Source of the DNA: Alphaproteobacteria bacterium
GTDB lineage: Bacteria > Pseudomonadota > Alphaproteobacteria > Rhodobacterales > Rhodobacteraceae
Reading direction: 5' to 3'
NCBI GenBank assembly: GCA_030830465.1
Contig: JAURMY010000260.1
Location: 1-9,391, forward strand
DNA length: 9,391 nucleotides
Shown here: positions 2,485-5,672 of the stretch, one piece after another
Numbering within the stretch: position 1 is the first letter of the stretch
Layout: the number at the start of each line of letters is the position of its first letter
Program-made: the position numbers and the translations under genes
Notes under the pieces: model-generated
The model's input: only the letters and a program-made list of their open reading frames with translations
Databases searched by the model: none
Told to the model about the DNA's origin: nothing

Positions 2485-3072
2485 TCAATGCAGGTTGGAT
2501 GCCAAATGCATCAGCGCCACCTGATTGTTGGTGCCTTCGATTTCCATCTTGGGTCCGGCCTCTTCTGCATCCAGGCCCAAACGTCCGATCCAACGCGACC
2601 AGACTGCCGGGACCAACCCCAGAATTTGGGTCGCCCCCAGTGTCCGGGCGGCGGTGATCATTTCGCCCATCAGATTGGCCTGGACCCGCATCCGCATATT
2701 CGACGGCACGTTCTGCGACACAAACACCCGGCTTGATTCCCAGATATGCGGGGCCACGGGCGCCTCATAATACAGCAGATCGCGGGGGATCGAATCCAGC
2801 AACCCCTTTTGGGCGTCGCGAATCATGTAAGAATAGATACCGCAGCGCGCCGTGGTCGGAGTCAGGCGAATACCGGCCAGAACCTGACCGAATTCATGCA
2901 CCGCGATCCAGCGGCTGGCCGGGGTGTCATACTGATCGTATTCCATCCCGTTCGCTTCCGGCAGGTCCCAATTGTTGCGCACAATGAAGGATTGCTTGCG
3001 TGCCCTTAACAGGTTGGCAAACAGTTCACCGTGAACATGCATGTTTTCAAAGGATAGAGTGGTCGTCTTCAT
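2485..3072 (-). CDS. luxI: LuxI-family acyl-homoserine-lactone synthase
   Basis: Makes the AHL signal from S-adenosylmethionine and an acyl-ACP in the cytoplasm. Seen (195 aa from this start): the family's invariant residues at almost their LuxI positions, namely R25, F29, W35, E44, D46, D49, R69, E112 and R115, the last two in WESSRVFV. Length is normal for the family (about 190-220). The frame also has an ATG at 3078, but the GGAGG at 3085-3081 would be only 2 nt from it. It is 8 nt from the ATG at 3072, giving the N-terminus MKTTTLSFENMH, so I chose that. It follows luxR by 60 nt on the same strand, with no terminator or convincing promoter between, so it is probably read from the luxR transcript. 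The acyl chain length of the product cannot be read from the sequence with confidence. Family assignment is very secure. Confidence 0.95.
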   Translation of the reverse strand: MKTTTLSFENMHVHGELFANLLRARKQSFIVRNNWDLPEANGMEYDQYDTPASRWIAVHEFGQVLAGIRLTPTTARCGIYSYMIRDAQKGLLDSIPRDLLYYEAPVAPHIWESSRVFVSQNVPSNMRMRVQANLMGEMITAARTLGATQILGLVPAVWSRWIGRLGLDAEEAGPKMEIEGTNNQVALMHLASNLH

Positions 3073-3080
3073 TTTCATAG

Positions 3081-3085
3081 CCTCC
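3081..3085 (-). promoter_or_regulatory. Shine-Dalgarno sequence that decides the luxI start
   Basis: GGAGG on the minus strand lies 8 nt before the ATG at 3070-3072 and only 2 nt before the ATG at 3076-3078. Spacing favours the inner ATG. Confidence 0.7.
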
Positions 3086-3132
3086 AGCTAGGTTGATAAA
3101 TCTCAAGCCCTGCTGGTGCTGTAAAAACCCGG

Positions 3133-3744
3133 TCAAAGTAGCCTGTAGTCCTTGGCGCGCTGTATCGCCTCTGCGGTTGTTCTGGCCAACAAACGATTTC
3201 TGGCAGAGATCAACCGGGCTTTCAGCGCACTTTCGGATATTCCCAGTTTTGCTGCGGCAGCAGCATGGCGGTGGCCATCAGCGATCAACTGCAGGGCATC
3301 TTTCTGTGCTTTGGTCAGGCTGTCGGGCGGGTCCGTCACCTCGTGCAGCGTCTGAACCAGATTTGTGATTCGTCGAATTTCTTCATCGGTGAACTCCCGG
3401 TCCGAACGCGCGCAACCGCAGATCGATCGTGAGGTCAAAGGACCGGTCGAAACAACCACCCCGTATTTCAGCCCGTATTCTTCTGCCTGCTTAAATATCT
3501 TGAACGGATCAGGCAGACTGATCTCGCTCCAGCGGCTTGCGCCGTTCTTAAAAAACCCCCAGGCCACCATGGGATCGCGCAGCGCGTACCCGTTTTTTGT
3601 GTAGTGGTCGATCCAGGCCTGCTCGTAGGTCTGGAACTGTACCAGGGGGCCGGCAAAGCGGATATGCATGCCTGCCATGTATCCGGATGGCGCCTCGCCA
3701 TCCAGAAGACTTAAGATTCGGTCAAGGCCTATGTTTTTGGACAT
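3133..3744 (-). CDS. luxR: LuxR-family AHL-responsive transcriptional regulator
   Basis: Binds the cognate AHL in its N-terminal domain and lux-box DNA through a C-terminal FixJ/NarL-type helix-turn-helix. Seen (203 aa): ligand-pocket residues spaced as in TraR, namely Y40, W44, Y48, D57, P58 and W72, with a probable equivalent of the conserved glycine at G95. The HTH spans about residues 143-203, with conserved L151 and G157. The usual HTH glutamate (LTxxE) is glutamine (Q147). At 203 aa it is shorter than typical LuxR proteins (about 230-250). Against TraR it lacks about 13 residues at the N-terminus and about 18 between W72 and the HTH. There is no purine-rich ribosome site before the ATG (upstream is AAAAAGAC), and the predicted promoter starts transcription at or near the ATG. 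luxI lies directly downstream, so this is a cognate pair and not a LuxR solo. Function is secure. Confidence 0.93.
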   Translation of the reverse strand: MSKNIGLDRILSLLDGEAPSGYMAGMHIRFAGPLVQFQTYEQAWIDHYTKNGYALRDPMVAWGFFKNGASRWSEISLPDPFKIFKQAEEYGLKYGVVVSTGPLTSRSICGCARSDREFTDEEIRRITNLVQTLHEVTDPPDSLTKAQKDALQLIADGHRHAAAAAKLGISESALKARLISARNRLLARTTAEAIQRAKDYRLL

Positions 3745-3760
3745 GTCTTTTTAGACAGGT
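3741..3760. promoter_or_regulatory. lux box (LuxR operator) between luxR and the divergent small gene
   Basis: The minus strand reads ACCTGTCTAAAAAGACATGT, a 20-bp imperfect inverted repeat in which 7 of the 8 outer base pairs are symmetric. The outer hexamers ACCTGT-N8-ACATGT match the Vibrio fischeri lux box outer hexamers (ACCTGT-N8-ACAGGT) at 11 of 12 positions. It overlaps the luxR start codon (3742-3744) and the predicted luxR -10, and its right end touches the -35 of the divergent plus-strand promoter. I saw no second box this good elsewhere in the window. Confidence 0.8.
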
Positions 3761-3778
3761 TGCGAAAATCGCCGTCAA
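3750..3778 (-). promoter_or_regulatory. Predicted luxR promoter (possibly leaderless)
   Basis: On the minus strand, TTGACG (3778-3773; 5 of 6 to consensus) is followed after exactly 17 nt by TCTAAA (3755-3750; 4 of 6). Only 5 nt separate this -10 from the luxR ATG, so the predicted start falls at or next to the start codon. The -10 lies inside the lux box, so bound LuxR should block it. Confidence 0.5.
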
Positions 3779-3787
3779 CCATAAATT
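3760..3787 (+). promoter_or_regulatory. Predicted LuxR-activated promoter of the divergent small gene
   Basis: TTGCGA (3760-3765) is followed after 16 nt by TAAATT (3782-3787), each 4 of 6 to consensus, as expected for an activator-dependent promoter. The predicted start is near 3794, about 31 nt before the ATG at 3825. The lux box centre (3750.5) is then at about -43 and its edge overlaps the -35 by one base. This is the classical arrangement for LuxR activation (box centred at -42.5 in V. fischeri luxI). Confidence 0.5.
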
Positions 3788-3824
3788 GATCAGGTAACTA
3801 TTTCTAATTTGTAGCACGGTGAAT

Positions 3825-4010
3825 ATGGCCACTACGATCGACCCCCAATTGTTTTCCAAAATCATGACTCTGCCAAAAAAGGTACGCCTTGATGTCTTGG
3901 AATTCGCTGGTTCGACGCCCGTCGGACCGGTGCAGTTGGACAAGATTATTAACGACCTCATGTCCACTCCGGTTGACCCTGGTAAAGACGCTGCGGTTAA
4001 GGTGGCCTAA
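3825..4010 (+). CDS. Small protein of unknown family, divergent from luxR and probably quorum-controlled
   Basis: I do not recognise this 61-aa product. Seen: ATG at 3825-3827 with a weak upstream GGTGA; a GTG at 3819 is an alternative start that adds two residues. The protein has 7 acidic and 7 basic residues, no Cys or Trp, no signal peptide and no membrane segment. Residues 5-28 look like an amphipathic helix around LPKKVRLDVLEFAG, and a second helix may cover about 36-47. The LP-x-x-V-x-x-DVLEF pattern faintly recalls small DUF2281-type proteins, but this is too weak to assign. It is the only plus-strand gene, sits behind a predicted LuxR-activated promoter, and its TAA falls in the T-tract of the opposing rplQ terminator. 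The DNA is AT-richer than the ribosomal genes. It could instead be part of a regulatory RNA. Reality as a coding gene is likely but unproven. Confidence 0.6.
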   Translation: MATTIDPQLFSKIMTLPKKVRLDVLEFAGSTPVGPVQLDKIINDLMSTPVDPGKDAAVKVA

Positions 4011-4047
4011 AAGGCAGAGCCCCACAGGATCAACCTGCGGGGCTCTG
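4009..4047 (-). terminator. Terminator of the ribosomal operon, shared with the convergent small gene
   Basis: A stem of 9 bp (CAGAGCCCC 4015-4023 with GGGGCTCTG 4039-4047), then an A/C mismatch and 4 more pairs, has a 5-nt loop at 4029-4033. On the minus strand it is followed by CCTTTT (4014-4009), 26 nt past the rplQ stop codon. On the plus strand no T-run follows, so it should be a poorer terminator for the small gene. Confidence 0.75.
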
Positions 4048-4073
4048 TCACTAAATCCTGAAGATATGTTGGA

Positions 4074-4490
4074 TCAGGCTTCGGCGGCCTCAGCTTCCAG
4101 GCGGGCCTTGTCGGCGGCGCCTTTTGCGGCGGGGTCGCGGTCAACGAATTCAATGATCGCCATCGGGGCCATGTCGCCATAGCGGAAACCGGCCTTCATG
4201 ATGCGCACGTAACCGCCCTGGCGGTCCTGATAACGCGGGCCGAGTACGGCGAACAGTTTGGCGACATATTCATCCTGCTTCAGCTGCGAGGCGGCCTGAC
4301 GACGGGCGTGCAGGTCACCGCGTTTGGCCAGCGTGATCATCTTTTCGATGATCGGACGCAGTTCTTTGGCCTTGGGCAGGGTTGTTTTGATTTGCTCATG
4401 CTCAATCAGCGAACCGGCCATGTTGGCGAACAGCGCCTTGCGGTGTTCATGGGTTCGGTTGAGACGACGGTATCCACGTGCGTGACGCAT
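4074..4490 (-). CDS. rplQ: 50S ribosomal protein L17
   Basis: Structural protein of the large ribosomal subunit. Seen (138 aa): the L17 N-terminus [18 protein letters not shown], the central [19 protein letters not shown] block and the C-terminal [26 protein letters not shown] block, followed by an Ala/Glu-rich tail of about 20 residues common in alphaproteobacteria. AGGAGA sits 6 nt before the ATG. It is the last gene of the operon, followed by a terminator. The 165-nt spacer from rpoA is long for neighbouring genes of one operon and holds a hairpin. Identity is certain. Confidence 0.98.
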
Positions 4491-4623
4491 TTCTTTCTCC
4501 TAAGCTTTTGCTTTGTCCGGCAGCCGATGCGTGTCAGCCGCTCTCCTTGGGGCGGGATTGCCCTGGGTGAAATTCCGGTTGTCAGAACCCACCCGCTTCC
4601 CCGGCAGTCCGGGCATTTGCGTG

Positions 4624-4654
4624 CGGCCCCGCATCGGGATGCAGGGCCGTTTTT
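4624..4654. other. Hairpin in the rpoA-rplQ spacer, T-tract on the antisense side
   Basis: A stem of 6 bp (CGGCCC 4624-4629 with GGGCCG 4644-4649), a mismatch, then 4 bp (4631-4634 with 4639-4642) closes a 4-nt loop. On the plus strand it is followed directly by TTTTT (4650-4654), so it has terminator form for transcription antisense to the operon. On the operon strand no T-run follows, so there it is more likely an RNA-stability or processing hairpin just past the rpoA stop codon. The rest of the 165-nt spacer shows no ORF and no convincing promoter. Confidence 0.55.
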
Positions 4655-4655
4655 C

Positions 4656-5672
4656 TTAGAAGTGGTCTTCGTATTTCTTGGCCAGCTCTTCGATATTGTC
4701 TGGCGGCCAGTCGAGGATATCCATACCCAGATGCAGGCCCATCGCGGTCAGAACTTCTTTGATTTCGTTCAGCGACTTGCGGCCAAAGTTCGGGGTGCGC
4801 AGCATCTCGGCTTCGGTTTTCTGGATCAGATCGCCAATATATACGATGTTGTCGTTCTTCAGGCAGTTGGCCGAACGGACCGACAGTTCCAACTCGTCCA
4901 CTTTCTTCAAAAGCAGCGGGTTGAATTCCAGGTCGTCCTCTTCCTCGGCGCGACCGGCAGCTTCCGGTTCGTCGAAGTTGACGAAAACCGACAACTGGTC
5001 CTGCAGAATGCGGGCGGCATAGGCGATGGCGTCTTCCGGCGTCACCGAACCGTCAGTTTCCACTTTCAGCGTCAGCTTGTCATAGTCCAGAACCTGACCT
5101 TCGCGGGTCGGGGTAACTTCATAAGACACTTTGGTGATCGGCGAGAAAATCGCATCAATCGGGATCAGACCGATCGGCGCATCTTCCGGGCGGTTCTTGT
5201 CAGCCGCAACATAGCCCTTGCCGCTTTCGACGGTCAGTTCCATGAACAGGCTGGCACCGTCGTCCAGGTGACAGATCACATGGTCGCGGTTCAGTATGGT
5301 GATGCCGTTGCTTTCGGAAATGTCGCCGGCGGTGACAACGCCCGGACCTTTGGCCGAAATCGAAACGCGCTTCATGCCGTCGACTTCCATCGCAACGGCC
5401 ACGCCTTTCAGGTTCAGAACGATGTCGGTGACATCTTCACGAACGCCCGCAACCGAGGAAAACTCGTGCAGAACATTGTCAATCTGAACCGAGGTGATCG
5501 CGCCGCCCTGCAGCGACGACAGCAGCACACGCCGCAGCGCGTTGCCCAGCGTCAGGCCAAAGCCGCGCTCCAACGGTTCGGCAACCGCGGTTGCCTGCCG
5601 TTGCGGATCTGCACCCGGACGGATGTCCAGTTGCGCCGGACGGATAAGTTCTTGCCAGTTCTTGTGGATCAT
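4656..5672 (-). CDS. rpoA: DNA-directed RNA polymerase subunit alpha
   Basis: Alpha subunit, which dimerises to start RNA polymerase assembly; its C-terminal domain contacts UP elements and activators, LuxR-type regulators among them. Seen (338 aa, normal length): the N-terminal assembly domain at about 1-235, with [19 protein letters not shown] and the [18 protein letters not shown] block; an acidic linker (AEEEDDLE); and the C-terminal domain at about 255-325. R266 in [17 protein letters not shown] corresponds to E. coli R265, the key DNA-contact residue, and [14 protein letters not shown] follows. GGAGG lies 7 nt before the ATG. A terminator-like hairpin separates it from rpsK, so its expression may be set apart from the ribosomal proteins. 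rpsD, which lies upstream of rpoA in E. coli, is absent here, as is usual for alphaproteobacteria. Identity is certain. Confidence 0.99.

Follow-up and report, generated by a model that had tools for sequence, protein, structure and literature searches.

A conserved GtaR-type operator between luxR and a divergent small gene in Rhodobacteraceae: a possible two-way switch

In an alphaproteobacterium of the Rhodobacteraceae (GCA_030830465.1, contig JAURMY010000260.1), a luxR gene and a small gene of the opposite strand lie on either side of a lux-box-like inverted repeat. The arrangement raises the question of whether one operator serves both promoters and, if it does, whether the regulator acts there with or without AHL. 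The window is the whole stretch of 9,391 nucleotides analyzed here. Its minus strand holds a ribosomal operon whose ORFs we take to be secY, adk, rpsM, rpsK, rpoA, and another ribosomal protein, and also rplQ, which was confirmed by search. After the ribosomal genes the same strand continues with luxR (3744–3133), luxI (3078–2485), a gene for a DegP-like protease, and the first part of rarA, named from its AAA/MgsA matches. The small gene is the sole gene in the opposite direction within the window. The features of this region are as follows.

3133..3744, minus strand: luxR, a GtaR/LuxR1-like AHL-binding regulator of 203 aa (Autoind_bind)
2485..3078, minus strand: luxI, an AHL synthase of 197 aa, located 3' of luxR (Autoind_synth)
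3825..4010, plus strand: divergent small gene for a 61-aa protein of an uncharacterised family, predicted to form three helices
4015..4047, no strand assigned: stem-loop where the small gene and rplQ converge, possibly a terminator (14-nt arms, 93% complementary)

The arms of the stem-loop are separated by 5 nt, and the structure was absent from the list given by the terminator scan. The closest genome locus was that of a Rhodobacterales MAG, whose LuxR is 86% identical. A luxI match was present in 75 of the 80 relative loci, and rpoA, rplQ, luxR, luxI, and rarA were found jointly in 57 of the 80, some of which end at contig ends. The L17-luxR-luxI-rarA neighbourhood also occurs in a Dinoroseobacter locus (L058). 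The search of a plasmid collection gave no match to window positions 3700–4074, no luxR relative was found in viral contigs, and Rfam at gathering thresholds returned nothing in the window.

The LuxR of the window matched the Pfam domain Autoind_bind (1.1e-12) and has six AHL-pocket residues (W44, Y48, D57, P58, W72, and G101), which were equated by spacing with W57, Y61, D70, P71, W85, and G113 of the published description (PMC11655674), the last being one residue off. The luxR start was identical in the window and 37 aligned relatives, and 203 aa was also the length of most among the best 120 database relatives. A start at Met23, as in a database entry of 181 aa (P0003), was rejected since the N-terminal 22 residues contain conserved positions. 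Such a start (window 3744–3678) may be chosen by gene callers when a leaderless start has no ribosome-binding site. According to one study, gtaR of Cereibacter sphaeroides, gtaR of Rhodobacter capsulatus, and luxR1 of Dinoroseobacter shibae are orthologs by phylogeny and synteny (PMC11655674). Based on the autoinducer domain, the pocket residues, the 203-aa length, the synteny in the 80 loci (a Dinoroseobacter among them), and this published ortholog group, we take the luxR of the window as a likely GtaR/LuxR1 ortholog.

The initial annotation had proposed a 20-bp lux-box-like dyad at 3741–3760, where the window reads ACATGTCTTTTTAGACAGGT. As a bare inverted repeat, only 7 of its 10 arm positions are paired, and the repeat search of the window did not list it. 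Repeats equal to or better than this occur elsewhere near luxR in many relatives, so the palindrome score alone was rejected as evidence for a box. The dyad is nevertheless real: positions 3740–3761 match in full the GtaR-site motif RACMTGTCYWWWWRGACAKGTY, a motif that Hernandez-Valle et al. (2024, PMC11655674) built from the regions upstream of gtaR in 24 Rhodobacteraceae and located in 18 of them. When the window was dinucleotide-shuffled 200 times, this motif was never matched at three or fewer mismatches.

3740..3761, minus strand: GtaR-type operator (20-bp dyad plus one base on each side), 22/22 to the motif; read from 3761 to 3740 on the luxR strand it is AACCTGTCTAAAAAGACATGTC
3726..3747, minus strand: weaker second dyad, reaching into the luxR coding region, 19/22

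The same annotation looked to an alignment across relatives for support, and the alignment gave it: a box of at least 18/22 was present in identical register in 46 of 81 sequences (the window and 80 loci), a tally that, like the others on this set, counts related sequences as they came and not independent events. The loci of Celeribacter, Aliiroseovarius, Pacificibacter, and Maritimibacter in the set had no in-register box at that threshold. The second dyad, which the initial annotation did not mention, has the half-site GACATGTC in common with the main box. We found the second dyad at the same place, with 19–21/22, in eight of the 80 other loci (L005, L006, L010, L013, L014, L023, L058, and L074), the Dinoroseobacter locus L058 having 21/22. 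The overlap of the two dyads suggests that binding could extend in tandem into the luxR coding region.

The box lies on a promoter for luxR that reads, on the luxR strand, TTGACG (3778–3773), 17 bp, TCTAAA (3755–3750), AAGAC, and ATG (3744).

3773..3778, minus strand: putative luxR −35, TTGACG, its TTGAC bases each at 0.93–1.00 in the 46 box-bearing sequences
3750..3755, minus strand: putative luxR −10, TCTAAA, with a 17-bp spacer to the −35 and 5 nt before the ATG

The succession of TTGAC, 17 bp, TCTAAA, 5 nt, and ATG is nearly invariant in the 46 box-bearing sequences, and the larger block CAATTTA-N-GGTTGAC-N11-CAACYTGTCTAAAAAG-NC-ATG is retained among them. With the −10 only 5 nt from the ATG, a leaderless luxR mRNA is predicted, and the luxR transcript is apparently of this kind. 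The earlier placement of the box over the luxR −10 and start codon agrees with the coordinates of both (3750–3755 and ATG 3744). GtaR is described as binding its own promoter across the predicted −10 and transcription start (Fogg, 2019, PMC6363796), so the part of the original proposal that had the box repress luxR agrees with what is reported for R. capsulatus. Since the box spans both the −10 and the start codon of luxR, and does so in register in 46 of the 81 sequences, the conserved layout makes luxR autorepression through it well supported.

On the other side of the box, ATG 3825 is the most likely start of the small ORF, with GTG 3819 as a possible alternative; GGAG-like ribosome sites precede many small-gene starts in the family. 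A search with the single protein sequence found three database proteins, and a profile of 34 sequences found 109, all of them unnamed, hypothetical, or uncharacterised and none with a precomputed Pfam domain. Among 34 members, Pfam at E values up to 1 gave scattered matches only (best E 0.027), and NCBIfam gave no match at E 0.01. In searches with the small protein, no PDB sequence fell below E 0.36, and a PDB fold search with the small-protein model gave nothing below E 2.7. The AlphaFold model has three helices (mean pLDDT 79.7), and the family core is I-P--F---M-LP---R-DLLEFLGATPV-D-QL. We compared 51 within-group pairs, one of them identical; in all 50 informative pairs the in-frame pN/pS (0.08–0.57) was below that of both other frames, and the three pairs that include the small ORF of the window gave 0.27–0.35. 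The small gene is a real protein-coding gene under purifying selection.

The profile detected the small gene (E < 1e-3) in 34 of the 81 sequences, including L004, where the match is to the second half of the protein only, and L018, where it is weak. It was present in 32 of the 46 sequences with an in-register box and not detected in the other 14; the remaining two cases were L037, with a displaced box, and L027, with a box-like string of only 16. None of the 33 sequences without a box had a small gene detectable by the profile.

Class II activation by LuxR-family regulators takes place from a position about −43 from the transcription start. The lux box of Vibrio fischeri LuxR, also of 20 bp, is centred near −42.5 and touches the −35 of the activated promoter, and the same layout is seen in the window.

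3760..3765, plus strand: putative small-gene −35, TTGCGA, at the box edge (TTG, 15–16 bp, TA-NNN-T in 36 of 44 loci, allowing a few offsets, spacers of 15–18, and some other −10 strings)
3782..3787, plus strand: putative small-gene −10, TAAATT, 16 bp after the −35, with the predicted start at 3793–3794

Two bases at the 5' end of this −35 lie within the 22-bp box, whose centre is at −42.5 to −43.5 relative to the predicted small-gene start. The annotated overlap of the box end with a weak plus-strand −35, and a centre near −43, are both borne out. The plus-strand hexamers are weak by consensus, and a generic sigma-70 scan of 2500–5500 listed neither the luxR promoter nor that of the small gene; both promoters therefore rest on conservation and not on consensus score. 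The CAATTTA block, within which the putative plus-strand −10 falls, persists with looser conservation in the 14 box sequences without a detected small gene. As it is not confined to small-gene loci, it was rejected as a clean proof of the plus-strand −10, and it may serve luxR or another regulator. CAATTTA-N-GG sits at −44 to −35 upstream of luxR (window about 3779–3788) and is possibly the site of a second regulator; a similar string, CAATTTA-N-GGTTG, occurs in some Aliiroseovarius-type loci without a box.

A sweep that started from the small-protein profile and not from luxR covered two overlapping family draws, one of 295 genomes, of which 29 gave a match, and one of 394, where 43 hits fell in 42 genomes. 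It gave 44 distinct loci, ten of which were already in the first locus set. A divergent GtaR gene stood beside the small gene in 40 of them, and 42 had a box of at least 18/22, the exceptions being L129 (16) and L153 (17). All four luxR-less loci kept the box, and three of them kept the small-gene promoter spacing; L122 had no clear −10 at the right place. The gene order is rplQ-small-box-rarA in L122 (20/22) and L125 (22/22), and rplQ-small-box-degP in L156 (22/22), where the luxR −35 is lost and the plus-strand TTGCGC-16-TAAATT is retained. At the fourth, L152, an additional copy of the small gene has a box of its own (19/22) and is divergent from a receiver-domain gene; the same genome has the usual locus elsewhere, and no rplQ or gtaR match was found near the additional copy. 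Two loci of genus relatives of the L125 genome (L165 and L166) also have no luxR between the box and rarA, with boxes of 20, and L165 has a stop within the small ORF. The luxR-less cases are few, three genera and one paralog, and might be recent losses. In L115 the luxR start is shifted off the box, and the dyad is a perfect palindrome.

The loci that have lost luxR and retain the box, three of the four with the plus-strand promoter spacing, favour control of the small gene by the box as well as of luxR, as far as can be read from sequence. To this extent the proposal of one box for two divergent promoters is supported, since the box stays beside the small gene in all four. The other half of that proposal, that AHL-bound LuxR is the repressing and activating form, probably has the sign reversed. 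The V. fischeri LuxR needs AHL to bind, whereas GtaR is reported to act without it. According to Hernandez-Valle et al. (2024), GtaR is reported to act without AHL, and C16-AHL to alleviate its negative effect on gtaR and gafA (PMC11655674). In D. shibae, luxR1 mRNA increased within 10 min when AHL was given to a luxI1 mutant (PMC6473078). A precedent exists in EsaR of Pantoea stewartii, which without AHL represses PesaR and activates PesaS, and which AHL removes (PMC13365800). The relief of GtaR by C16-AHL, the induction of D. shibae luxR1 by AHL, and the EsaR precedent together point to an AHL effect opposite to the one first claimed.

With modest confidence we lean towards a two-way switch resembling that of EsaR and esaS, in which free GtaR would repress gtaR-gtaI and activate the small gene, and AHL would reverse both effects. 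From the operator and its position we infer binding of GtaR here and activation of the small gene, and by analogy with R. capsulatus GtaR and P. stewartii EsaR the sign of the AHL response. Signal-free GtaR would bind 3740–3761, covering the luxR −10 and start and blocking luxR and, with it, luxI. The bound dimer, at about −43 on the divergent side, would touch the −35 and most likely activate the small gene. At low density gtaR-gtaI would be off and the small gene on; as AHL accumulates, GtaR would be released, gtaR-gtaI derepressed, and expression of the small gene would fall.

Simple autorepression, with the box belonging to luxR alone and the small gene an independent neighbour whose promoter merely overlaps it, appears rather unlikely. 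It fits the published binding of GtaR over its own −10 and start (PMC6363796), the 14 of 46 in-register box sequences in which the small gene was undetected, and the partial constraint that the ATG puts on the right box arm; it is hard to reconcile with the four luxR-less loci, which retain the box with its centre 62–70 bp away from where the small-protein model begins, and with the finding that none of the 33 box-less sequences has a detectable small gene. Bound GtaR might instead block both promoters, AHL freeing both, a reading to which we give a little less weight than to simple autorepression. The box does reach two bases into the plus-strand −35, and the named GtaR targets, gtaR and gafA, are both negatively affected (PMC11655674), but the fixed class II spacing, kept in three of the four luxR-less loci, is typical of activation, the weak plus-strand hexamers suggest a need for an activator, and the related CerM appears to be mainly an activator (PMC11655674).

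The geometry by itself would equally suit a canonical AHL-dependent class II activator, that is, an AHL-bound LuxR that, when density is high, represses its own gene and activates the small one, as first claimed. Most characterised members of the LuxR family bind DNA only with AHL, which counts for this sign. We consider it improbable, given that the reported behaviour of GtaR is the opposite (PMC11655674) and that luxR1 of D. shibae is induced by AHL (PMC6473078). Least probable is that the conserved block is mainly core promoter, with no protein site and the dyad as a by-product. The left arm and the TAAAA run are indeed better conserved than the right arm, and several Rhodovulum loci have GTC for GAC; against this, the box outlasts the loss of luxR, the dyad of L115 is perfect away from the ATG, and boxes occur elsewhere in some genomes.

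The EsaR-like switch that we prefer can be set beside several known systems, the closest being GtaR/GtaI of R. capsulatus, LuxR1/LuxI1 of D. shibae, and GtaR of C. sphaeroides. The window shares with the gtaR group the operator motif, a site over the −10 and start, and a luxR that adjoins luxI; it differs in that the published descriptions, in their available parts, mention neither a small gene in divergent orientation nor another promoter at the GtaR/LuxR1 site. With EsaR at PesaR/PesaS of P. stewartii, which belongs to a different bacterial class, the window appears to have in common one LuxR-family regulator, a box over one −10, and an activating position at a divergent promoter. The differences are that the divergent gene here encodes a conserved protein about 60 aa long, that the luxR promoter is apparently leaderless, and that control is inferred.

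The luxR side of the operator is already known, and the conserved uncharacterised partner gene is the new part. The literature on GtaR with small or divergent proteins does not describe the small gene among the matches listed, and no paper was found through presumed locus tags in the neighbourhood of luxR1 in D. shibae and of gtaR in R. capsulatus. A review names L17 and a 'conserved hypothetical protein' among the genes drawn beside luxRI operons (PMC3824088), so an earlier drawing may already include the small gene. GtaR of R. capsulatus governs the production of gene-transfer agents by way of gafA and also influences CtrA (PMC11655674; PMC6363796). If the proposed switch is true, a conserved small protein, retained with its box after the loss of gtaR-gtaI, would be an unrecognised output of the GtaR system, and an EsaR-like two-way switch would become testable in laboratory strains of alphaproteobacteria. 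A tentative further idea, which we hold more doubtful than the switch itself, is that the small protein belongs specifically to GtaR-type quorum sensing in Rhodobacteraceae, being made at low density from a divergent promoter that GtaR activates and acting on the circuit, for example on GtaR or CerM-like regulators, with GtaR-type control retained after gtaR-gtaI are lost.

The search for further boxes used the strict pattern ACNTGTC-N6-GACANGT. In 16 chosen genomes it occurred at 0–4 places per genome, that of luxR included (0 in three of the 16), and the reversed-pattern control gave 0 in all 16. The 10 chosen ORFs beside ten extra boxes had no shared theme, and five had no Pfam match. The best other R. 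capsulatus matches to a GtaR site model were unbound in vitro (Leung et al., as reported by Fogg, 2019, PMC6363796), and GtaR bound the gafA promoter although it has no such sequence (Fogg, 2019, PMC6363796). The motif alone is therefore a weak predictor of binding elsewhere in a genome. A histidine-kinase/receiver gene of Defluviimonas denitrificans is preceded, at a distance of about 110 bp, by a GtaR-like box (L094, 2536–2555), and that genome has three more strict boxes.

A regulator other than GtaR could act on the box in some genomes. CerM, of the CerM/CerN system of C. sphaeroides, is related to GtaR and binds a site that resembles that of GtaR (PMC11655674), so a CerM-like regulator could, by analogy, read the box where gtaR is absent from the locus. 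In three genomes (G285, G119, and G339) gtaR is absent at the small-gene locus and other LuxR homologs are present. Two of these, G285 and G119, have a neighbouring pair of LuxR homologs of which just one carries a DNA-binding domain, as in CerM/CerN; the homolog with the autoinducer domain only lies beside the full-length one, and the pair does not adjoin the small gene. A third LuxR-like ORF was observed beside the CerM/CerN-like pair in L161 and L162, whose genomes have the small gene and its box but no gtaR at the rplQ locus.
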